A DNA stretch of 51,151 nt from Chloroflexi bacterium HGW-Chloroflexi-8. GTDB taxonomy: Bacteria; Chloroflexota; Anaerolineae; Anaerolineales; Anaerolineaceae. Position numbers and translations under genes: made by a program. Under the pieces are notes generated by a model. It did no database searches and was not told the DNA's origin. It saw nothing but the letters and a program-made list of their open reading frames with translations. The stretch covers positions 1 through 51,151 of the forward strand of contig PHBS01000005.1 of the NCBI GenBank assembly GCA_002841995.1, written 5' to 3'. Below, one piece after another: positions 20,075 to 34,270 of this stretch (its first letter is position 1; each line of letters begins with the position of its first letter).

Positions 20075-20130
20075 GATTATCCATCCAAATCGTTTCTTAT
20101 AATGCTAACAAAATAAATCCATTTTGCTAC

Positions 20131-20159
20131 TTGACATAAAAGCATCTCGTCTCTATAAT
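20131..20159 (+). promoter_or_regulatory. Consensus sigma-70 promoter of the iclR-type gene
   Basis: TTGACA (20131-20136), a 17-nt spacer and TATAAT (20154-20159): a perfect consensus promoter. Transcription would start near 20166. This places the promoter inside any longer reading frame from the TTG at 20124 and therefore argues for the ATG at 20202. Confidence 0.85.
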
Positions 20160-20173
20160 CTTATAATATTCTT

Positions 20174-20186
20174 GGGACAGCGTCCC
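20174..20186. promoter_or_regulatory. Candidate autoregulatory operator
   Basis: The palindrome GGGAC-AGC-GTCCC lies 8 nt after the expected transcript start of the strong iclR-type promoter and 15 nt before its ATG. IclR-family regulators bind short palindromes, often at their own promoter, so bound protein here would block its own transcription. Confidence 0.5.
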
Positions 20187-20201
20187 GCTCAGTGGCACAA
20201 A

Positions 20202-20996
20202 ATGAAAATCGAAAAAATCCAGACCCTTGATCGTGCATTTCAAATACTTGATTGTTTTTCCCTTGAGGACTATGAATTGGGAGTCCGCGAAGTGGCTCGT
20301 ATAACAAACTTGCCATCAAGTGTGTGTGGTCGATTAATGGCTGGAATGAAAAATTGGGGTGTTTTGGTCCAAAATAATGTAACCAAAGCCTATTCAATTG
20401 GACCCAAACCTTTACGTTGGGCAGAGATATATTCAGCCAATCTTGATATCCGGAATGTTGCATTTCCATTCATAAACGAATTACTTTTACGTTCAAAAGA
20501 AACGATCAGTTTGTATATTTTGGACAATGATGAGAGATTGTGTATTGAGCGAATGGAAAGCGCTCAGAATGTCCGGATTGTTGCCCGAATCGGCAGGCGA
20601 TTACCACTATTCGCTGGTTCGGCTGGGAAAGTATTGCTTGCTTTCTTACCTTATCAAAGGCAAGAAGAAATTATTCAAAAAACTGAGTTCAAACCGTTTA
20701 CAGACCATACAATTACCGATCCGCAAGAATTAAGAAAAGAACTTAAAAAAATTATGAAACAGGGATACGCCTATAGTAATGGCGAATGGGTATCAGATGC
20801 GGCAGGTGTAGCAGCCCCAATTTTTGATCATAAAGGCAACGTGATTGCTGCAATTACGATCTCAGGCCCATCCAATCGTTTTACCCCTGATGCAGTCAAT
20901 ACTCACATACTAAATGTTCTTAAATTTGCCGAACTCATTTCTCACGAACTCGGTTACATCGGAACCGATTATCCACAACAAAACCAACATCAATAA
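20202..20996 (+). CDS. IclR-family transcriptional regulator of the TCA-cycle block
   Basis: 264 residues from the ATG at 20202. An N-terminal winged helix-turn-helix (about 5-65, including VREVARITNLPSSVCGRLM) is followed by the IclR effector-binding domain (about 80-250), with the typical RIGRRLPLFAGSAGKVLLAF and DAAGVAAPIFDHKGNVIAAITISGP regions. It lies between divergent icd-acnA and downstream citrate synthase, so it probably controls these genes in response to a TCA or glyoxylate metabolite. The TTG at 20124 would extend the frame but overlaps the promoter. No good Shine-Dalgarno precedes the ATG. Confidence 0.88.
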   Translation: MKIEKIQTLDRAFQILDCFSLEDYELGVREVARITNLPSSVCGRLMAGMKNWGVLVQNNVTKAYSIGPKPLRWAEIYSANLDIRNVAFPFINELLLRSKETISLYILDNDERLCIERMESAQNVRIVARIGRRLPLFAGSAGKVLLAFLPYQRQEEIIQKTEFKPFTDHTITDPQELRKELKKIMKQGYAYSNGEWVSDAAGVAAPIFDHKGNVIAAITISGPSNRFTPDAVNTHILNVLKFAELISHELGYIGTDYPQQNQHQ

Positions 20997-21098
20997 ATCC
21001 TAATGGTTGATTGATAAAATTTTCAGCCTCAATCTACTTTTTGAGGTCGAAAGAAATTTTTTCATTTTTTATTTGGAAAGTCAAAGGAGCAAACGACA

Positions 21099-22406
21099 AT
21101 GAAATTAATGGAAGAAAGAATTGAGGCTCAATTACCTGTGTGGCGGGAAAGGGTTAGCCGGTTACGAAATAACGGAGATTTTAAAGTTTGCGATGTAACC
21201 GTTTCACAAATCTACAGTGGTATTCGTGGTGTCCAAATTCAAGTGAGTGATATTTCTTATGTAGATCCCAACAAAGGGATTCTCATCCGTGGTCATACAA
21301 TCTCTGAACTATTGGATTTGCTACCAAAAGCAAAAGATTCACAAATGCCGTTGGCAGGTGGGCTATTTTTTCTGTTAATGTGTAATGAAATGCCTACCAA
21401 TGAAGAAGCAGAACTGGTTGAAGAAGAATGGCGGAAGCGTTGCCTCATCCCGACATATGTATTTAATTCAATTCGTAGAATGCCGGCCGATACCCACCCG
21501 ATGACCCTTCTTTCTATGGGAATAATGGCATTGCAAAGAGAGTCAGTTTTTTCGAAGCGATACGCAGAAGGAATGAATAAACAGGATTATTGGCGGTCAA
21601 ATCTTGAAGACGCCATCAACCTGACTGCAAAATTACCCGGTTTGGCTGCATTTATTTACAACCTGAAATATCAAGACGGAATTTATGTTCCTCCAAGTAC
21701 AAATCTGGATTGGAGTGCAAACTTTGGTCACATGATCGATCGGTTTAAAGACCAGGATTATTATGATGTTTGCCGTTTATTTTTTTTCCTGCATTCCGAC
21801 CATGAAGGAGCAAATGTAAGTGCACATACAACTCACCTGGTTAGCTCCGCCTTGTCTGATGTCTACTTATCCTGCGCTGCCGGTATGAATGGATTGGCTG
21901 GTCCATTACATGGGTTGGCAAATCAGGAATGTTTGAAATGGTTAATCGATGTCAGAGACCATTTTGGTGGACTTCCTGAACAATCTGCTTTAGAGACTTT
22001 TTTGAGAGAGCAAATTGGCAGAGGAGAACTAATTCCCGGATATGGTCATGCGGTATTACGAACTACAGATCCCCGATTTACAGCACAACTTGAATTTGCA
22101 AATGAAAATATAAAAAACGATGTGCTCATCCAATTGGTGGAATTGGTATATAAAACACTACCTCTTATCTTAAGAGAATCTGGCAAGATCAGTAATCCAT
22201 GGCCAAATGTTGACGCGATCAACGGTGCACTTCAATATCATTATGGCGTAACTCAATACGATTTCTATACAGTTCTTTTTGGGATTAGTAGAATTATGGG
22301 ATTGGTATCTCATATCGTGTGGGCGAGGGCATTGCTCAAACCTATTGAAAGACCAAAATCACTTACGACTGATATGCTGGAAGCGATGATAGCAGGAAAA
22401 AATTAG
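21099..22406 (+). CDS. gltA: Citrate synthase, eukaryotic (mitochondrial-like) type
   Basis: 435 residues. The catalytic residues are H271 (GPLHGLANQ), H317 (PGYGHAVLR) and D372 (NPWPNVDAINGA), equivalent to pig heart H274, H320 and D375. Long stretches (HSDHEGANVSAHTTHLV, MNGLAGPLHGLANQE, YTVLFGISR, ERPKSLTT) match the mitochondrial enzyme rather than the hexameric GltA of enterobacteria. It condenses acetyl-CoA with oxaloacetate. AAAGGAG lies 9 nt upstream of the ATG. A weak hairpin (CCTCAA/TTGAGG) lies between it and the IclR-type gene. The next gene follows after 19 nt. Confidence 0.95.
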   Translation: MKLMEERIEAQLPVWRERVSRLRNNGDFKVCDVTVSQIYSGIRGVQIQVSDISYVDPNKGILIRGHTISELLDLLPKAKDSQMPLAGGLFFLLMCNEMPTNEEAELVEEEWRKRCLIPTYVFNSIRRMPADTHPMTLLSMGIMALQRESVFSKRYAEGMNKQDYWRSNLEDAINLTAKLPGLAAFIYNLKYQDGIYVPPSTNLDWSANFGHMIDRFKDQDYYDVCRLFFFLHSDHEGANVSAHTTHLVSSALSDVYLSCAAGMNGLAGPLHGLANQECLKWLIDVRDHFGGLPEQSALETFLREQIGRGELIPGYGHAVLRTTDPRFTAQLEFANENIKNDVLIQLVELVYKTLPLILRESGKISNPWPNVDAINGALQYHYGVTQYDFYTVLFGISRIMGLVSHIVWARALLKPIERPKSLTTDMLEAMIAGKN

Positions 22407-22425
22407 ATCAATGGAGTAATTCAAA

Positions 22426-24189
22426 ATGGAAAACGGCTCTTATCAATTTTATGGGGATAAATTGGTCATTCGAATACGAAACCGTGTTTGTGATACGGTG
22501 GATGAATTAATTTCAAGCGAAATTTTTATGGATCTATTGTCCAAATATGTTCGCAGACTTTTTCGACAGCAATCCAGGTTGTTGCGTGTCTTCACCAATG
22601 AAGAACAAGTTACTACCGAAGAACTAAAAACGATGCAAAAGACTTTAGTCATGTTATCGAAACTGCCTGCGGATCAAGCAAAACTACTTGTCCCGGGATG
22701 TGAAACTTTTTTTGAAGATATCGAATTGTTAAGTGACTTTGTGGAACAGCTTTATAACTTCTGGCGTGGACTGCATCGCCTGATTATATGTGACTCGATT
22801 GGTGATCGCCTGGATAAGCGCCCTTACCGCACTTTCAATGATACTGTCGAAAGGCTCATGCATGTTGTTCGGTCAGCACAACGGGACATTCTTGAAAATA
22901 TTACTGGTGACCACCCTAGGGTTTACCGCCAAGTCAGTGCAGGAGCCGAAATGGCGGCAATCGCATTACCTGAGAAAATCCCATACCCTACTTCACTATA
23001 TGAAGAGTTGAATAAAATCCTGGTGGCCAGGCAGGTATTAATTTATCCACCCATGATCTATAACTCTGCAACGAATAAACGGAGCGGTACATTTACGCGT
23101 GTAAATTACAATCCTCTTGAAGGCTTGGAAATTAATCCAAAGGAATGGTTGTGTTACCCCGCAAAAGTAGGGTCACTCGTAATTAATGTTTATTTTTCAA
23201 TGACATTTTTCGAAATGGGTTTTTCTTTAAGTAACCTGTTTGAATTAGCCGAAGATGAAGACTTAAAACGTAAACCGGATGCAATTTTTCTGTTTGGAAT
23301 TCCGAGCACGGCAGAAAGTGCTGTACAGGAACAAGACACAATATTTTATGATGACGAAGAAAATGATCTATTAGTCGGTTCTGTCCCCTTTCGAAAGGAA
23401 TATAGCTATTTTGGGTACCTCAAGAAGATGATATTAACTTTGCATAATATTAAAATGATGAAACTGGGCAGAATGCCTTTCCATGGTGCCATGTTTCACA
23501 TCGTTTTACGCAATGCAGGTAGTTCAAATGTAATCTTAATTGGGGATAGTGGTGCAGGAAAATCCGAGACTTTAGAAGCATTGCGCGGAATTATTGAAGA
23601 TCAGGTGGAAGAATTAACGATTGTTGCTGATGATATGGGATCAATTGAACTCACCCCAGAAGGCAATGTGATTGGTTATGGAACGGAAATTGGTGCCTTT
23701 GTACGTTTGGACGATCTTCAAAAGGGTTATGCTCTCGGACAAATTGACCGCACTATCATCATGAATCCAGACCAGGTGAATGCCAGAGTTGTTATACCTG
23801 TTACGAAATATAAAAATGTAATTCGCGGTTTCGATGTTGATTTTATTTTATATGCAAATAATTATGACTCTGTCGATGAAGATCATCCCGTGATTGAACA
23901 ATTCAATCATTCCGAAATGGCGTTGGACGTATTTCGTTCTGGAGCTGTCATGAGTAAAGGAACAACAACCACAACCGGCCTGACACATTCTTATTTTGCC
24001 AACATATTTGGCCCACCGCAATATCGAAATTTGCATGAAGAAATTGCCCAAAAGTATTTCAACCAGTTTTTCCAAAGAGGAATATTTGTAGGTGAAATGA
24101 GGACACAACTTGGTATTTCTGGTAAGGAATACTCCGGTCCAGAAGAATCAGCCCGAGCATTACTTAATATGTTGCTTAAAAAAGAATAG
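22426..24189 (+). CDS. HPr-kinase/PEPCK-superfamily P-loop protein of unknown substrate
   Basis: 587 residues. The C-terminal half has an HprK-like core: HG at about 353-354 (PFHGAMFHI), the P-loop GDSGAGKSE at 373-381, then VADDMG at 400-405, the same order as in HPr kinase (x-HG..., GxSGxGKSE, VADD). HPr kinase and ATP-type PEP carboxykinase share this fold. Lys380 should bind phosphate, and D402/D403 the metal and catalytic base. The N-terminal half (1-340) has no domain I recognise. The gene lies 19 nt after citrate synthase with GGAG 8 nt before the ATG, so it is co-transcribed with it. It may be a PEPCK-like enzyme or a protein/metabolite kinase linked to central carbon flow; no HPr gene is visible. 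Confidence 0.7.
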   Translation: MENGSYQFYGDKLVIRIRNRVCDTVDELISSEIFMDLLSKYVRRLFRQQSRLLRVFTNEEQVTTEELKTMQKTLVMLSKLPADQAKLLVPGCETFFEDIELLSDFVEQLYNFWRGLHRLIICDSIGDRLDKRPYRTFNDTVERLMHVVRSAQRDILENITGDHPRVYRQVSAGAEMAAIALPEKIPYPTSLYEELNKILVARQVLIYPPMIYNSATNKRSGTFTRVNYNPLEGLEINPKEWLCYPAKVGSLVINVYFSMTFFEMGFSLSNLFELAEDEDLKRKPDAIFLFGIPSTAESAVQEQDTIFYDDEENDLLVGSVPFRKEYSYFGYLKKMILTLHNIKMMKLGRMPFHGAMFHIVLRNAGSSNVILIGDSGAGKSETLEALRGIIEDQVEELTIVADDMGSIELTPEGNVIGYGTEIGAFVRLDDLQKGYALGQIDRTIIMNPDQVNARVVIPVTKYKNVIRGFDVDFILYANNYDSVDEDHPVIEQFNHSEMALDVFRSGAVMSKGTTTTTGLTHSYFANIFGPPQYRNLHEEIAQKYFNQFFQRGIFVGEMRTQLGISGKEYSGPEESARALLNMLLKKE

Positions 24190-24244
24190 GAAGAAATACC
24201 ATCTTCAAATTTTTGAAAAAGAATATTTGGATTTCCAAAAGCGA

Positions 24245-25384
24245 CTACGGATATGTTGTTTCACCAAGGGTAATATCAGTCTGCATGGAATCGTTGCCGC
24301 GGAAAAAGGTGATTGCAATTGTTTCATTCGGCTTGAAATGAAATAGAACATTAATGAAAGAATTCTTTTCATTAATTTCTTCATCACCCAGTTTTGTGAT
24401 AATGTCTCCAACTCTTAAACCAGCTTGTTGAGCAGGGCTATTGTTTCCAATTTCGGTTAAATAAATTCCATAATCTGAAGGTAATTGATATCTGGCTGCA
24501 ATTCTAGGGGTAATGCTCTCATAATTTGCTCCAAAGTATGGTCTGGCAAAAAAACCTGACTGGATGATTTGATTACTGATCATTTGAGCAGTATTGGAAG
24601 GAATGGCGAAGCCTAAAGCTTCTGCAGTTGTTGATGAACTTCCTCCCCGCACGACCATCGTATTAATGCCGATAATTTCCCCAGCCAAATTGACTAAAGG
24701 ACCACCGGAGTTTCCTGCGTTAATGGCAGCATCAGTCTGGATAAGATCTTCCATCGTGTAACCATTTCCAGTATCCAGTGAACGGCCTGTAGCACTGATT
24801 ACTCCGACTGTCACTGAATTACGGAATGTGCCGAGCGGAGACCCAATTGCTATCACAGTCTCTCCCGGTTGCATGAGTTCCGAATTACCAATGACCGCCA
24901 CTCCGGGTACATCACCTTCAATTTTTAAGATTGCTAAATCGGCATATACGTCTGTGCTAACTAACCTGGCTTCTTTTTCAGTGCCGTCATTAAAGAAAAC
25001 GGAAATGGTTTTAGTATCCTGAATCACATGATTGTTGGTAATAATATAACCATCCCTGGAGATAATTACACCGCTTCCACTTACTTCCTGGTCAGAAGTT
25101 GTCCCAAAGAATGTTTGCATACCGCTGATCGTTCCAACAACCGTTACGACAGCGGGCTCAACTTTATTGACCACATCGGTTATTGTAGTTTGAATGTCTG
25201 TATTGCTGATGATGATTGAAGATGGCGTAGGAGTAGCAATTACTTCATTAAGGACTGTAGTTTGAGTTTTTTGATTTCCAATATAATTTACAGTTAAAAT
25301 AACCCCGGTCACAGCACCGAAGATTGAACTTGTAAAAGCGACAAGTATAATCAATAAAAAGGCAAGAAGTTTCTTAGGATTCAT
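24245..25384 (-). CDS. Membrane-anchored HtrA/DegP-type serine protease with PDZ domain
   Basis: 379 residues. An N-terminal membrane anchor spans about 6-33, with a linker to about 75. The trypsin-like domain has the triad H119 (TNNHVI), D149 (YADLAIL) and S226 (NAGNSGGPL). One PDZ domain (about 280-372) ends the protein. It degrades or refolds damaged extracytoplasmic proteins. The start has AAGGA 6 nt upstream. It is divergent from the M23 lipoprotein gene, across a 142-nt region holding two near-identical palindromes. Confidence 0.93.
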   Translation of the reverse strand: MNPKKLLAFLLIILVAFTSSIFGAVTGVILTVNYIGNQKTQTTVLNEVIATPTPSSIIISNTDIQTTITDVVNKVEPAVVTVVGTISGMQTFFGTTSDQEVSGSGVIISRDGYIITNNHVIQDTKTISVFFNDGTEKEARLVSTDVYADLAILKIEGDVPGVAVIGNSELMQPGETVIAIGSPLGTFRNSVTVGVISATGRSLDTGNGYTMEDLIQTDAAINAGNSGGPLVNLAGEIIGINTMVVRGGSSSTTAEALGFAIPSNTAQMISNQIIQSGFFARPYFGANYESITPRIAARYQLPSDYGIYLTEIGNNSPAQQAGLRVGDIITKLGDEEINEKNSFINVLFHFKPNETIAITFFRGNDSMQTDITLGETTYP

Positions 25385-25456
25385 TCGTTTTCCTTGATTT
25401 TTTTATGAGTATATCGCGAAATAATTAGAAATTTGTTTATGTATGGTATATTTTCA

Positions 25457-25498
25457 CAAAATATTTTGCTAGATGAAAAGATTTGCGAAAATATTTTG
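25457..25498. repeat. Two near-identical palindromes 30 bp apart in the htrA/M23 divergent promoter region
   Basis: CAAAATATTTTG (25457-25468) is a perfect palindrome. GAAAATATTTTG (25487-25498) repeats 11 of 12 bases. Their centres are 30 bp apart, close to three helical turns, on the same face of the DNA. This is consistent with a cooperative regulator controlling the divergent protease and cell-wall hydrolase genes. Confidence 0.55.
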
Positions 25499-25526
25499 TA
25501 ACTTTTTGGATTGATATAACGGAAAT

Positions 25527-26399
25527 ATGCAAAAGATAATCATTTGTGGAACCCTATTGATAATTTTACTTACTACTTGTACTTCAAAGCCTCAAATCGA
25601 GTTGAGTAAGCCTCAAATGACACCTACTTTGGAAGAAATGACTGACGCATTAACAACTCAACTCGAGCCAAAAGTACCCATCCCAACAATTGTTATTACC
25701 AAACCGATACCCACGCTCATTCCTGTTGTTTTGCCAGAGAAATCAAAAATTTCCTCACCTTTAGAAGATAAAGATTTGAGTGAACTAGCAAGTATGATTT
25801 CAAACCCATATCGTCCGCCAGAGGTTGGATCGGATGATCCCCACCAGGGTGTCGACTTTAGTGATGTTGATAAAGAATCAAAAGTGGCGTATCCAGGTCG
25901 CGAAGTGAAAGCGATGATTGATGGTGAAGTAATTGGAATTATGCAGGATCGGTTCCCTTATGGAAATGCAATTTTGATTAAAACAAACGTGGTTTCTTTA
26001 CCAAAAAACTGGCGTGTTTATTTGGAATCATTGGAAATACCCGGCCTCTGGAATAAGAATACTTCCCTAACTTGTCCAGAAGGTTGGAATGATGCTCCAG
26101 AAAATCAAAACAGTCTTTCTTTGTATATACTTTATGCACATATGAGAGATCCAATCGATATAGAGTTGGGGCAAAAATTATTCTCAGGGGACAAACTTGG
26201 TGTGGTAGGAATGAGTGGCAATGCATTGGCTCCCCATCTCCATCTCGAAATGAGATATGGCTTCGATGTAGAATCTTTTGGTAGCATGTCACATTATGAT
26301 GTCACAGCCACACAAGAAGAGATGTCTAATTATTGTCGCTGGCGAGTGAGTGGGTGGTTTAAGTTAATCGATCCGATAACCATATTGTCAATTGATTAA
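25527..26399 (+). CDS. M23-family (LytM-type) peptidase lipoprotein
   Basis: 290 residues. A lipoprotein signal ends in LLTTC with Cys18. A Pro/Thr-rich linker follows to about residue 90, then an M23/LytM domain. Zinc-site motifs are visible: H106-x3-D110 (PHQGVD), H205 (YAHMRD) and H237/H239 (HLHLE). It likely cleaves peptide cross-links of peptidoglycan at the cell surface. An insertion around 155-195 separates the domain parts. It starts 8 nt after a weak GGA. Its stop overlaps the stop of the convergent M15-like gene by 4 nt. Confidence 0.85.
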   Translation: MQKIIICGTLLIILLTTCTSKPQIELSKPQMTPTLEEMTDALTTQLEPKVPIPTIVITKPIPTLIPVVLPEKSKISSPLEDKDLSELASMISNPYRPPEVGSDDPHQGVDFSDVDKESKVAYPGREVKAMIDGEVIGIMQDRFPYGNAILIKTNVVSLPKNWRVYLESLEIPGLWNKNTSLTCPEGWNDAPENQNSLSLYILYAHMRDPIDIELGQKLFSGDKLGVVGMSGNALAPHLHLEMRYGFDVESFGSMSHYDVTATQEEMSNYCRWRVSGWFKLIDPITILSID

Positions 26400-27208
26400 G
26401 GAATGGCCTCGCGTAAGTCGGTATAGCCTTGTTCAATCATCCATTTGCAGAGAATCGGGCCACCGTATTCATCTGGAATTGGTGCGACTCCTTCAGGTTG
26501 GGGTAAACCATTGAAACCCCGGAAGTATCCAAAAACACCATTTAACTGCTCATAAGCGGCCGAAGACAAATCCCGATCTCCAATTGCAATGGCATGAATA
26601 TGGATAGGAGAACCTGGATATAACTCATCGAAGCCACGGAGCCATGCTGCGAAGCCTGCGGTTCTTAAGGCATGAACCAAAGGCTCAATATCATCATACA
26701 GAACTTGATAGGTTCCGTATTGGATAACAGATAAATCCACAGCACCTCCCCCGGAATGGGTCCCAAAACTTGCAGATACTTCGTTTGAATAAGATCCTTG
26801 AGTGAGATGATACCCGGTCAAATCAATCTCTCCTCCATACAATTCTTGAGCTTGTACCAGCATGTCATAAGTTCTCTGGTTAATTAACATTCCATTTATG
26901 TAGACCAATGTGTAATCTTTGGAGGGTTCAAGGCAACCTTCAGGTTGTTGAAAAGTAGGTTCTGGCTGAGGTGTGAGGGTAGGAATAAGGATTGGAATTT
27001 TTGTTGGTAAATTCGTAGGTGTAAGAGTTTTTGTTGAAGACGTAATAGGTGTTAATGAGGATTTGATTGGTGTAATCGTTGGAACAGGTAGCTTATGGTT
27101 TTGGCAATTGGATAAAAGGATCACAATTGTGAGTAAAAACAAGTTTCTCCAAATTCTGTTCTTCTCAGTTTTTCTGAGTAGAAGTAGTAAACTGGCCATT
27201 TTATCCAT
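26396..27208 (-). CDS. M15-like (D,D-/L,D-carboxypeptidase fold) zinc peptidase lipoprotein
   Basis: 270 residues. A hydrophobic signal ends in the lipobox LLSNC (Cys35), followed by a Thr/Pro-rich linker (about 38-85). The catalytic domain has H151-x6-D158 (THSGGGAVDLS) and H203-x-H205 (PIHIHAI), which match the SxHxxGxAxD and HxH zinc motifs of the VanY/DacB M15 group. It is probably a peptidoglycan carboxypeptidase, with lower certainty because Glu before the final His pair is not obvious. It is convergent with the M23 lipoprotein. The start could be residue 1 or Met4; no ribosome site is evident. Confidence 0.72.
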   Translation of the reverse strand: MDKMASLLLLLRKTEKNRIWRNLFLLTIVILLSNCQNHKLPVPTITPIKSSLTPITSSTKTLTPTNLPTKIPILIPTLTPQPEPTFQQPEGCLEPSKDYTLVYINGMLINQRTYDMLVQAQELYGGEIDLTGYHLTQGSYSNEVSASFGTHSGGGAVDLSVIQYGTYQVLYDDIEPLVHALRTAGFAAWLRGFDELYPGSPIHIHAIAIGDRDLSSAAYEQLNGVFGYFRGFNGLPQPEGVAPIPDEYGGPILCKWMIEQGYTDLREAIP

Positions 27209-31098: not shown

Positions 31099-31161
31099 CA
31101 TGCAATAAAATTATTTTTTACATAACTTATATCGTTGTGATTGGAAATTAAGGAGTCTCGT

Positions 31162-31719
31162 ATGCCTCAGGATCGTACAAGGAAATTAGTTATTACGGGT
31201 GTGATGGGCGCTATTGCAATTTTATTAGGTGTCACTAGGTGGGGTTTTATTCCCTGGTTTGGTGGTGTTTCACTGACGATCATGCATGTACCAGTGATTA
31301 TTGGAGCCGTACTAGAAGGTCCAATTGTTGGTGTAGGTATCGGTCTAATATTTGGAATTTTTAGCATGATTCAGGCTGCTGTAGCACCCAATGGACCTTC
31401 CGATATTTGGTTTACCAATCCGCTTTTGTCTGTTCTGCCTCGCTTATTCATTGGACCTGTATCTTATATTGTATGGAAAGCATTGCAGCGAATACCAGTG
31501 GTAGGTTTGATCGCCGCAGGTATTGCAGGAAGCTTGACGAATACGATTCTGGTTCTGGGAACAATCGGATTAATGGGATTATTACCCTGGGCAGCTTTAG
31601 GTGGCATTGTAGTCGGTAACGGTTTATTGGAAGCCGGTGTCTCTGCTGTTATTACCCTGGTTGTTGTGGCAGCATGGCGTCAAATCAGAATTGGTAAGAA
31701 AAAGGGTTCTGACTTATAA
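31162..31719 (+). CDS. ECF transporter substrate-binding (S) component
   Basis: 185 residues with about six hydrophobic segments. The N-terminus RKLVITGVMGAIAILLG with the IMHVPVIIGAVLEGP stretch is typical of ECF S proteins. It binds a vitamin or related micronutrient in the membrane and docks on EcfT. The ligand cannot be assigned. AAGGAG lies 7 nt before the ATG at 31162; the TTG at 31141 that would extend it lies upstream of this site. It is convergent with ecfT, overlapping it by 6 nt, so S and the energising module are transcribed towards each other. Confidence 0.85.
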   Translation: MPQDRTRKLVITGVMGAIAILLGVTRWGFIPWFGGVSLTIMHVPVIIGAVLEGPIVGVGIGLIFGIFSMIQAAVAPNGPSDIWFTNPLLSVLPRLFIGPVSYIVWKALQRIPVVGLIAAGIAGSLTNTILVLGTIGLMGLLPWAALGGIVVGNGLLEAGVSAVITLVVVAAWRQIRIGKKKGSDL

Positions 31720-32535
31720 AATCACAATAACTAATGAAAAAATTAAGACGGCAATTAAGAATAAGCCGTCTTTTTTCTTAAATTCAAGGTGACGATACGA
31801 ACCTCGCTGAGATGACGAGCCATAGCCCCTGGCATCCATTGCTAAAGCCATATTTTCGGCTCGCTGAAGGCTGATCAGAAACATTGGAATAATGACAGGA
31901 TAAATCGTCTTTACCCTTTGAACAATATTTTGTTTCTTAATTCCCCAATTAGCTCCTCTGGAAGCTTGTGCTTTTGCGATTTGTTCGGTAGCCTGTCCCA
32001 ACATAGGGATGTAATGCAAAGTAACCTGAATCACTAGAATCAGATCTTCACTGTGAATTCCAAGCCAATTAAGTGGTTTGAAGAGCGATTGCAGTCCATA
32101 AATCATATCGCTGCTGGAAAGTGAATAACTGGCTAAACTGATCAGTAATATTAAAGTTATAAATCTTACCATGACAACTGCACCAGCAATTAATCCATTG
32201 ATTGTTATAGTAAAAGGACCTAAAGCAAAAATTAGTTGGTTGGTTGGGTCTGGTGCAAAACGGAAAAATTGTAAAAATGCAATGATTGCCAAGAAGATTA
32301 AAGGGGTCTTTATACTCCTGGCAACATACTTTAATGGCACTTTTGAAATTTGAAAACCCAATAGAATGAGGATCAAGCCGGAAAGAATCATAAAAAAATG
32401 TGATGTAAAAGTGATCGCCATTAAAAGACTAACATAACCAACAATCCTGGCTCGTGCATCGAGGCGATGGATCCAGGAATCTAATGGCAAATATTGACCA
32501 AAGGAAAGGTTTTGCGAAAACTCAAACGCGGACAT
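31714..32535 (-). CDS. ecfT: ECF transporter transmembrane (T) component
   Basis: 273 residues with several membrane helices and the two EcfT coupling-helix signatures near the middle and C-terminus: AQASRGANWG (about 193-202) and AMDARGYG (about 235-242), each containing the family's A-R-G. It links the S component to the ATPases. It overlaps the ATPase gene by 14 nt, and its stop overlaps the convergent S gene by 6 nt. Confidence 0.92.
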   Translation of the reverse strand: MSAFEFSQNLSFGQYLPLDSWIHRLDARARIVGYVSLLMAITFTSHFFMILSGLILILLGFQISKVPLKYVARSIKTPLIFLAIIAFLQFFRFAPDPTNQLIFALGPFTITINGLIAGAVVMVRFITLILLISLASYSLSSSDMIYGLQSLFKPLNWLGIHSEDLILVIQVTLHYIPMLGQATEQIAKAQASRGANWGIKKQNIVQRVKTIYPVIIPMFLISLQRAENMALAMDARGYGSSSQRGSYRHLEFKKKDGLFLIAVLIFSLVIVIL

Positions 32536-34270
32536 CTTTTACCTCATCCAATTGTTCAAATGCAGCTATTAATTGTTGGCTGATGATAATATTTTCGGGA
32601 ACCATCCAATTTTTCTGACGAAGAATTTTTACCATTTGAGCTGCAATAGGAGCTGTCATTTTGTTATCTTCTAGCAATTTGTGGTTGGATAATAACTGTT
32701 CACTTGGCTGGCTAGCGACAACTTGACCTTCTGATAATAAAGTCACATGGTCAGTCAATAAAGCCAAATCCTCCATTTGGTGCGAAGAAACGATTAGTGT
32801 TTTCCCATTTTTATTTAAGGTTTTCATTTGGTTCAAAATTTCATTTCTTGCGACTGGATCCAAACCTGCTGTTGGTTCATCAAGAAGAAGTAAGGTTGGA
32901 TTCAATGCAAGCGTTGAAGCCAATGCAACTTTACGTTTTTCACCACCAGACAATGCAAACGTCATTCGGTCTTTAAAGGATTCAAAATCCATTCCGACAA
33001 TATTCATGGCGTCCATCACTCTTTGCCGTAATTCAGGACCTTTAATACCTAGTAATCGCAAACCATAAGCAATTTCATCTCCCACATATTGTTCAAAAAG
33101 CTGATAATTTGGATTTTGAAAGACAATGCCTGCATATCTGCGTAAAGCCAAAAAATCTGTCTCGCGATTGACTTGAAAAGGTCCGACCTGTAATGTGCCC
33201 TTCTGAGGAAAATAGAGGCCATTAAAATGTTGAATTAATGTTGATTTGCCAGAACCTGTAGCACCGATCAAGCCGTGGATACTCCCTTCGGGGATAGAAA
33301 AAGTAATATCTTCCAAAGCCATATGAGCAAGAGGAGTATCTTGCATGTAAGTAAATGTCAGATTTTGGGATTCAACGATTGGATTCGCATTATTTCGAGA
33401 GAAATATTTACTATCCAAATTCCGGAAGAAAATTGGATTGTTGAGCGGAATAATCTGGTTGTCAAATTCTTCAAGAGTCATTGGATCATTTAAAGAAGGG
33501 ATCCATTTGCTTAATTGTTGTGCGAATGAAAAAATACGGGGTTTGTCCAGATTGAGCGTTTGAACCAATTTTGAATTGGTAAATAATTCTTTTGGAGTGC
33601 CATCAAAAAGTAATTTTCCCTTGGCAAGACCCAAAATTCTATCGGCAAGACAGGCTTCTTCCATGAAATGGGATATTGTAATTACGGTGATCCCCTGGTT
33701 TCTCAGTTGTTTAATGCTTTCCAATACTTCCATTCTTCCAGCTGGGTCCAACATCGCTGTTGTTTCGTCGAAAATGACACATTTGGGTTTCATTGCCAAT
33801 ATGCCGGCTAACGCAACTCGCTGCATTTGACCTGCGGATAAGTGTTGGGGAGCCCTTGTTCTTTGATCCCACATATCTACATCCAGAAGGGCTTTTTTGA
33901 CTCGTTCTTGAATTTCTGGAGTGGAGAGTCCGAGGTTTTCAGGACCAAATGCTACATCTTCCTCGATCGTTGAAGCAATCATTTGTTCTTGTGGATGTTG
34001 AAAAACCATACCAACCTGTTGGTGAATGGTGTTTAGATTTACTTTGTCTTTTGAATTCAACCCATTAACAAGAATTAGTCCCTGTTGAGGTATTAGCAGT
34101 CCGGAGAGGTGTCGTGCTAAAGTAGATTTTCCAGAGCCATTAGCTCCGACAATTGAAACGTATTCTCCGTGATGAATCTCAAAGCAAACATCCCGTAATG
34201 CACGATGTGGAAGTGAGCCAGGATTTTGATGAGCAAACGAAACGTGGTTCACATCGAACATGACATCCAT
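32522..34270 (-). CDS. Fused double ATPase of the ECF transporter (EcfA-EcfA')
   Basis: 582 residues containing two complete ABC ATPase units in one chain. Unit 1 has Walker A GANGSGKST at 42-50, signature LSAGQ at 144-148 and Walker B CVIFDETTAMLDP at 164-176. Unit 2 has Walker A GATGSGKST at 336-344, signature LSGGEKRK at 440-447 and Walker B LLLLDEPTAGLDP at 459-471. Most bacteria encode EcfA1 and EcfA2 separately. Unit 1 has the weaker signature and ETT in place of EPT. It drives the adjacent EcfT-S importer. The ATG at 34270 has AAGGA 10 nt upstream. Confidence 0.93.
   Translation of the reverse strand: MDVMFDVNHVSFAHQNPGSLPHRALRDVCFEIHHGEYVSIVGANGSGKSTLARHLSGLLIPQQGLILVNGLNSKDKVNLNTIHQQVGMVFQHPQEQMIASTIEEDVAFGPENLGLSTPEIQERVKKALLDVDMWDQRTRAPQHLSAGQMQRVALAGILAMKPKCVIFDETTAMLDPAGRMEVLESIKQLRNQGITVITISHFMEEACLADRILGLAKGKLLFDGTPKELFTNSKLVQTLNLDKPRIFSFAQQLSKWIPSLNDPMTLEEFDNQIIPLNNPIFFRNLDSKYFSRNNANPIVESQNLTFTYMQDTPLAHMALEDITFSIPEGSIHGLIGATGSGKSTLIQHFNGLYFPQKGTLQVGPFQVNRETDFLALRRYAGIVFQNPNYQLFEQYVGDEIAYGLRLLGIKGPELRQRVMDAMNIVGMDFESFKDRMTFALSGGEKRKVALASTLALNPTLLLLDEPTAGLDPVARNEILNQMKTLNKNGKTLIVSSHQMEDLALLTDHVTLLSEGQVVASQPSEQLLSNHKLLEDNKMTAPIAAQMVKILRQKNWMVPENIIISQQLIAAFEQLDEVKDVRV

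Follow-up and report, generated by a model that had tools for sequence, protein, structure and literature searches.

A putative divergent clade of PEPCK-like proteins with an added N-terminal domain, encoded beside citrate synthase in an Anaerolineaceae genus

Our analysis suggests, with moderate confidence, that a 587-residue protein encoded directly after citrate synthase represents a divergent clade of the PEPCK superfamily, i.e. a PEPCK-type enzyme of oxaloacetate/PEP or a related 2-oxo acid that carries an added N-terminal domain. The gene lies in the window, the whole stretch of 51,151 nucleotides from Chloroflexi bacterium HGW-Chloroflexi-8 analysed here. Homologous sequences and a structure model both indicate that the protein, called KIN hereafter, probably works like a PEPCK. 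No paper describing or testing this clade was found in our literature search, which lacked most subscription journals.

Results

The gene and its surroundings

The original prediction placed a 587-residue open reading frame 19 nt past citrate synthase, and both the coordinates and the spacing agree with our reading of the window:

20124..20996, + strand: IclR-type regulator gene, upstream of gltA, scoring below every equivalog cut-off
21099..22406, + strand: citrate (Si)-synthase, 435 aa (NF007128, 559 bits, cut-off 344)
22426..24189, + strand: KIN, the PEPCK-like protein, ATG start, 587 aa plus stop

The gap of 19 nt runs from the end of citrate synthase (22406) to the start of KIN, and a GGAG lies ahead of this start at 22413-22416. 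The surroundings had been called a TCA-gene block, and this holds, as citrate (Si)-synthase, NADP-isocitrate dehydrogenase (Icd; 574.9 bits, cut-off 490) and AcnA (1306.7 bits, cut-off 686) all score above the cut-offs of curated models, the latter two being encoded near KIN on the opposite strand. The citrate synthase beside KIN is not the sole one in the genome, since a second gene of the family elsewhere (G000:C109:1570-2619, L103) scores higher with PF00285, i.e. 410 vs 287 bits. A consensus scan of positions 20900-24500 gave 7 promoter-like sites against a shuffle mean of 10 and 1 terminator-like site against 3 in shuffles, and is uninformative on the co-transcription with citrate synthase proposed originally.

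Downstream of KIN, at 24245-27208, sequence reading points to an HtrA-like protease and two lipoproteins, one of them M23-type, and these two lipoproteins recur at the same place in 7 of 39 KIN loci. An ECF-transporter-like set, also recognized by sequence reading, lies at 31141-34270, where minus-strand genes for a double-ABC ATPase and a T-component-like protein converge with a plus-strand substrate-component-like gene.

Predicted fold and family assignment

KIN scores below the cut-off of every Pfam and NCBIfam model. The best Pfam match is a generic P-loop match to ABC_tran (20.7 bits, cut-off 25, E 6.6e-4). The curated ATP-PEPCK scores are not reached, with 13.4 bits for PF01293 (cut-off 26.5, E 0.032) and 28 bits for NF006821 (cut-off 369), and HPr_kinase_C (PF07475) is below its threshold as well (13.0 bits, cut-off 33.3, E 0.073). 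The best NCBIfam match is to a PEPCK subfamily (E 8e-7, residues 283-433). With E <= 0.1 as the limit, 22 of 23 family members are matched by this PEPCK model (best 5.8e-8), 16 by PF01293, 12 by the HprK equivalog model (best 7.1e-5) and 9 by PF07475.

We predicted the structure of KIN with AlphaFold2 from a 23-row alignment, obtaining a model with pLDDT 83.2 and pTM 0.85. The best Foldseek match of this model is 2pc9_B (E 6.7e-14), and the best 50 matches listed are all PEPCKs, one of them being a PCKA-containing complex model. VIA-align gives 2pc9_C as the best match (Z 17.4, rmsd 3.3, 347 aligned residues), where model residues 190-587 are aligned with residues 5-457 of the Thermus PEPCK; again the best 50 matches listed are all PEPCKs, with Z 15.4-17.4 over 337-386 residues. 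Because of these Foldseek and VIA-align matches of the AlphaFold2 model, we consider the family question settled in favour of PEPCK. The chain is accordingly divided as follows:

22426..22959, + strand: extra, mostly helical N-terminal domain, residues 1-178, outside the canonical PEPCK match (structure model and alignment)
22960..24186, + strand: predicted two-lobed PEPCK fold, residues 179-587, matched from ~183 (Foldseek and VIA-align on the model)

An unrecognised N-terminal half had been proposed for this protein. The description suits residues 1-178, but from ~183 on the chain belongs to the PEPCK fold; since residues ~183-587 are modelled as a complete two-lobed PEPCK, the unrecognised part shrinks to ~1-178.

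A search of solved-structure sequences with KIN did not single out PEPCK (best E 0.18, an alkylmercury lyase), and with the KIN profile the best match was an immunity-related GTPase at E 0.023, with a PEPCK at E 0.92. When KIN was compared profile to profile with 10 ATP-PEPCKs of Anaerolineae, the match had E 3.7e-7 and covered residues 267-381. When the 41-row profile described below was used, the E-values were 1.6e-7 against 10 PEPCKs (229 columns), 2.4e-7 against 4 PEPCKs (103 columns) and 3.5e-5 against 3 HprKs (60 columns), the HprK profile being made of 3 of the 4 fetched HprK loci, with one HprK read as 241 aa. Global alignment of the KIN core to PEPCK was weaker (E 6e-5, probability 37%), and the KIN N-lobe alone gave E 0.0016 and probability 16%. 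The HPr kinase/PEPCK catalytic layout seen originally is correct, with PEPCK favoured by the predicted fold, the Y.G..KK segment and the profile comparison.

Conservation of the active-site core

The homologue alignment has 41 rows, i.e. the window protein together with 22 of 28 contig-scan loci and 18 of 20 Clostridium-phylum loci; we left out L065, a duplicate of L019, as well as L069, for which the frame read from ATG starts at residue 217. The lowest pairwise identity is 36%, and 86 of the 587 columns are invariant. The positions discussed here are:

23080..23082, + strand: R219, proposed counterpart of Arg65, which binds substrate in E. coli PCK (low-confidence profile alignment; 41/41)
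23407..23427, + strand: Y328-F-G330-Y-L-K333-K334, PEPCK-specific segment (E. coli Y207, G209, K212, K213; profile-profile alignment, E 3.7e-7)
23482..23484, + strand: H353, equivalent of the PEPCK metal-binding His (profile alignment; 41/41)
23542..23568, + strand: P-loop GDSGAGKSE, residues 373-381 (GKS 41/41)
23629..23634, + strand: D402-D403, kinase-2 XDD (DD 41/41)
23779..23787, + strand: N452-A-R454, proposed equivalent of the PEPCK N-T-R (low-confidence profile alignment; N and R 41/41)
23941..23979, + strand: residues 506-518, G....KGTT...G, possible PEPCK mobile lid (model residues 507-527 have pLDDT < 50)

Y328, G330, K333, K334, H353, G373, G378, K379, S380, E381, D402 and D403 are invariant in all 41 rows, and so are R219, N452 and R454, while position 375 varies between S (23 rows) and T (18 rows). 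The order HG, GDSGAGKSE and VADD, noticed in the original prediction, is found at H353-G354, G373-E381 and V400-D403, and the invariance of H353, G354, G373, G378, K379, S380, E381, D402 and D403 across the 41 homologues indicates that these motifs are more than chance. K333, K334 and H353, aligned to the Lys, Lys and His of PEPCK, supply the XKK segment and the metal-site His, and the GK[ST] P-loop and XDD of the PEPCK superfamily are present as GKS and DD. A regular expression finds a His exactly 19 residues past the second Lys in 30 of the 41 rows, whereas the alignment has His in every row.

We take H232 of E. coli PCK to be the counterpart of H353, and its N-T-R residues to be Asn331 and Arg333, with R333 presumably corresponding to R454. 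The equivalence of R219 and Arg65 is put forward as a proposal because the match falls in the low-confidence part of the profile alignment. PDB titles name mutants of E. coli PCK at Arg65, Tyr207, Gly209, Lys212, Lys213, Ser250, Lys254 and Asp269. In the canonical PEPCK of the window's genome we find Y194, G196, K199, K200, S237, K241 and D256, i.e. a constant offset of 13 from Tyr207-Asp269, and this anchors the mapping from Y.G..KK to DD. A study of PEPCK alignments locates the catalytic site in the XKK, P-loop and XDD motifs (PMC2684135). A hypergeometric value of 6e-6 for seven invariant PEPCK positions was set aside, as 3 of the 7 had been picked with the conservation of KIN in view.

The N-terminal domain

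Ten columns of the N-terminal domain are invariant in the 41 homologues, i.e. F34, L77, Y110, W113, R118, F137, N158, R168, Q169 and G173. Modelled alone from 35 rows, the domain has an overall pLDDT of 83.3 and is confident over ~21-120 and 141-160. Foldseek found no reliable fold relative for it (best E 0.65), and the VIA-align matches listed, at Z 4.6-5.8, are not significant, the best being globin folds (5.8) and the RsbR N-domain (5.5). The domain's profile matched nothing better than E 0.022 among solved-structure sequences. OHCU decarboxylase (PF09349) was matched by 17 of 35 sequences at E <= 1 (best 0.005) and by the window protein at 15.2 bits against a cut-off of 24; these matches were treated as chance. 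This conserved domain probably regulates KIN or binds a partner.

Distribution of the clade

In a sample of 61 genomes, i.e. the window's own and 60 relatives, KIN is encoded in 19, all among the 37 genomes of the same family. Every sampled genome of the genus has it (8/8), as do 11 of 29 in the rest of the family, and none was found in 24 genomes from other families of the order. Of 400 genomes drawn from the window's phylum, 3 matched at E <= 0.001; 2 of these have a full-length KIN, and both belong to the window's family. Sampling 398 genomes from the phylum to which a KIN-bearing Clostridium belongs gave 34 matches at E <= 0.001, 25 of them full matches below E 1e-200. By scanning genome contigs with six peptide patterns we collected 28 KIN loci, from Anaerolineaceae, other Chloroflexi, three Clostridium, one Tissierellia and Lucifera butyrica, and from single MAGs labelled Deltaproteobacteria, Dehalococcoidia and Actinobacteria. 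Plasmid records yielded one match (Limosilactobacillus fermentum), and the phage records searched yielded none.

Gene context across the loci

We compared 41 stretches (the 28 contig-scan loci, 12 further ones and the window), 39 of which carried KIN. Citrate synthase is upstream of KIN on the same strand in 10 of the 39 loci, and 11 of the 19 KIN-bearing relatives have a citrate synthase in the 1.5-kb flank of KIN. An IclR-type gene is clustered with the gltA-KIN pair in 9 of the 39, and in L007 too by direct BLAST. The idea that the protein is tied to TCA entry therefore fits the genus and some family members, but 29 of the 39 loci have no gltA neighbour, and a universal gltA link is ruled out.

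Eight other loci of the 39 have a polar-amino-acid-type ABC transporter operon directly upstream of KIN, short spurious frames aside; the ABC binding protein of L026 matches the Lys/Arg/Orn family at E 4e-27, but with 95.3 of the 256.35 bits needed. In L007 (4615-10172) one same-strand run holds gltA, KIN, proB (glutamate 5-kinase, 10 nt after KIN by its longest-ORF start) and proA, the last named by sequence reading. Also with longest-ORF starts, an aminotransferase gene lies 10 nt downstream of KIN in L023 and a GlcD-like oxidase gene overlaps KIN by 4 nt in L087. No adjacent gene cluster is common to more than two of the 18 loci outside Anaerolineaceae; L085-L087 have two nearby genes in common, and L088 and L089 a 120-aa gene just upstream of KIN. 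Because the neighbourhoods vary by lineage, none of them is strong as a clue.

Occurrence alongside canonical PEPCK and HprK

Apart from KIN, a single canonical ATP-PEPCK is encoded in the window's genome, and GTP-PEPCK gave no match there. HprK was not found in this assembly (~93% complete), and the check for ptsH found no HPr in it, with 0 matches to PF00381. The alternative that KIN is itself an ordinary PEPCK is borne out as far as the core catalytic residues go, which are those of PEPCK; the protein as a whole is not an ordinary PEPCK, the separate canonical one being present in the same genome.

Canonical ATP-PEPCK scores over its cut-off in 15 of 19 KIN-bearing relatives vs 33 of 42 relatives lacking KIN. 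In the Clostridium phylum draw the corresponding numbers are 12 of 25 vs 11 of 30 (30 genomes lacking KIN were tested), one of the latter 11 being a weak match of 35 bits. Among the 11 KIN-bearing genomes of named records (L021 left out), 5 have ATP-PEPCK, 1 has GTP-PEPCK and 5 have neither, e.g. the complete Pelolinea submarina chromosome, where neither type is over its cut-off. Replacement of canonical PEPCK by KIN is unsupported, since the two occur independently in both samples. True HprK is over its cut-off in 4 of these 11 genomes, i.e. two Clostridium, the Tissierellia and Lucifera. Given this independent occurrence and the coexistence with HprK, KIN neither replaces nor requires an ordinary PEPCK and is not HprK. 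An HPr kinase proper is ruled out by the predicted fold, the score, the finding of no HPr and the coexistence with true HprK.

Two side observations were made in these genomes. One Clostridium genome has four HPr_kinase_C-like matches within 8.5 kb (L098 and G064:C34:75775-84236), one of them over the cut-off, in open frames of 311-327 aa, with a true HprK elsewhere in the genome; the four appear to form a cluster of small HprK-like proteins. The Clostridium phylum draw also gave a different PEPCK-like protein of 549 aa (L092:6371-8020, G315:C36), with FGLSGSGKST and a gap at the R219 column, which is possibly of the Lactobacillus casei / Streptococcus bovis type, described in the alignment study as having Ser between Lys and Thr (PMC2684135).

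Comparison with known enzymes

With ATP-PEPCK (EC 4.1.1.49; PF01293, PRK09344) KIN shares the two-lobed fold over ~183-587 as modelled, the Y.G..KK, His, P-loop Lys and DD in the same order, and possibly the N-x-R. The two differ in that identity is 13-18% in the structural alignments of the matches listed, and KIN has the extra 178-residue N-terminal domain. The P-loop GDSGAGKSE occurs in 22 of the 41 KIN rows, with close variants in the others, whereas canonical PEPCK has GLSGTGKTT in 10 of 10. The RX5TR ATP (adenine) pocket is likewise found in 10 of 10 canonical PEPCKs, but in 4 of 41 KIN rows, the window protein not among them. We do not file KIN as an ATP-PEPCK because it lacks this pocket and the curated scores. 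PEPCKs with no clear ATP or GTP pocket also appear in published alignments (PMC2684135).

GTP-PEPCK (EC 4.1.1.32; PF00821) has the same fold as the KIN model, with Z 15.4-16.1 and 10-15% identity among the matches listed. PF00821 itself gave no match to KIN at E <= 10, in a search whose filters drop weak matches. The guanine-pocket pattern [FY]xxx[FY] is present in 36 of 41 KIN rows, the pattern being too loose and its position unrestricted.

HPr kinase/phosphorylase (PF07475) has in common with KIN a strip consisting of the P-loop GDSGxGKSE or GESGxGKSE, HG and (A)DD, with 33% identity over 60 columns, and the HprK-type strip GDSGxGKSE ... ADD is indeed found in KIN. What sets KIN apart from HprK is its Y.G..KK segment, together with the N-lobe of PEPCK type predicted for it. 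The likeness to PPi-dependent PEPCK (EC 4.1.1.38) is in the nominal reaction only, and it is set apart by its description as evolutionarily unrelated to ATP/GTP PEPCK (PMC8100219).

Limosilactobacillus fermentum AYP99509.1, annotated as phosphoenolpyruvate carboxykinase, belongs to the same clade (36.7% identity over 548 residues). All the PEPCK-equivalent residues checked are kept in this plasmid-borne protein of 569 aa, and K511 of KIN is Leu there; no citrate synthase was found in 17 kb around it, for which the gene table is incomplete. DUF4914 (PF16260) is weakly matched by 6 of the 23 KIN members (best E 4.1e-4), and the term was not found in the literature searched.

Discussion

If KIN acts as PEPCK does, K334, H353 and D403 would hold the catalytic metal, and the metal bound to the nucleotide would be held by S380 and D402. 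Oxaloacetate/PEP, or a 2-oxo acid much like it, would be bound by R219, N452 and R454, and the 506-518 loop may close over the substrate. The reaction would be a reversible decarboxylation with phosphoryl transfer, i.e. oxaloacetate + NTP <-> PEP + NDP + CO2, or the same with a related acid. Supply or drain of oxaloacetate around citrate synthase is the simplest reading of its physiological role, because KIN adjoins citrate synthase in this genus.

The same fold might serve another substrate, and KIN would then be a kinase, decarboxylating or not, of an oxaloacetate-related 2-oxo or amino acid, e.g. in glutamate or proline metabolism. The coexistence with canonical PEPCK in 15 of 19 KIN-bearing relatives is in line with this, as are some amino-acid-related neighbourhoods (ABC transporter in 8 of 39 loci, proB in L007, the aminotransferase in L023, the GlcD-like gene in L087). 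But the neighbourhoods vary between lineages and none is strong, and Y328 and K333, the substrate-side PEPCK residues that are confidently placed, are kept. We consider a changed substrate rather unlikely.

We find it improbable that KIN is an HprK-like protein kinase phosphorylating citrate synthase or other TCA enzymes, as the whole PEPCK N-lobe is predicted in it, HPr_kinase_C stays at 13.0 bits against 33.3, the match to the HprK profile is shorter and weaker than that to PEPCK, gltA is not a neighbour in 29 of 39 loci, and a true HprK accompanies KIN in 4 of 11 genomes. For such a kinase speaks the strip of most rows, GDSGxGKSE and then ADD or FDD, which is nearer to HprK than to the GLSGTGKTT of PEPCK, as do the 12 of 23 members matching the HprK equivalog model, the adjoining gltA in the genus, and the protein phosphorylation reported for mammalian PEPCK1 (PMC9138534).

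Still more improbable is a PEPCK relative of weak catalysis that serves in regulation or sensing, with the N-terminal domain as sensor or scaffold. This might be suggested by the extra conserved domain and its non-significant VIA-align matches, at Z 4.6-5.8, to globin folds and to the N-domain of RsbR, but a catalytic core kept invariant across 41 homologues with identity down to 36% is not expected of a dead enzyme.

Returning to the PEPCK-type enzyme, its chemistry is likely to be familiar. We tentatively speculate that the clade could be a further PEPCK class, i.e. a carboxykinase of 2-oxo acids that depends on a nucleotide, has a regulatory N-terminal domain of its own and is run alongside canonical PEPCK. 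In this genus it may be co-expressed with citrate synthase and control oxaloacetate entry into the TCA cycle, or it may use another substrate. At least one member of the clade is already named phosphoenolpyruvate carboxykinase in the public record. The extra N-terminal domain is a concrete place to look for regulation. PEPCK is an enzyme of the PEP-pyruvate-oxaloacetate node, and a second conserved PEPCK-like clade may change flux predictions in these anaerobes.
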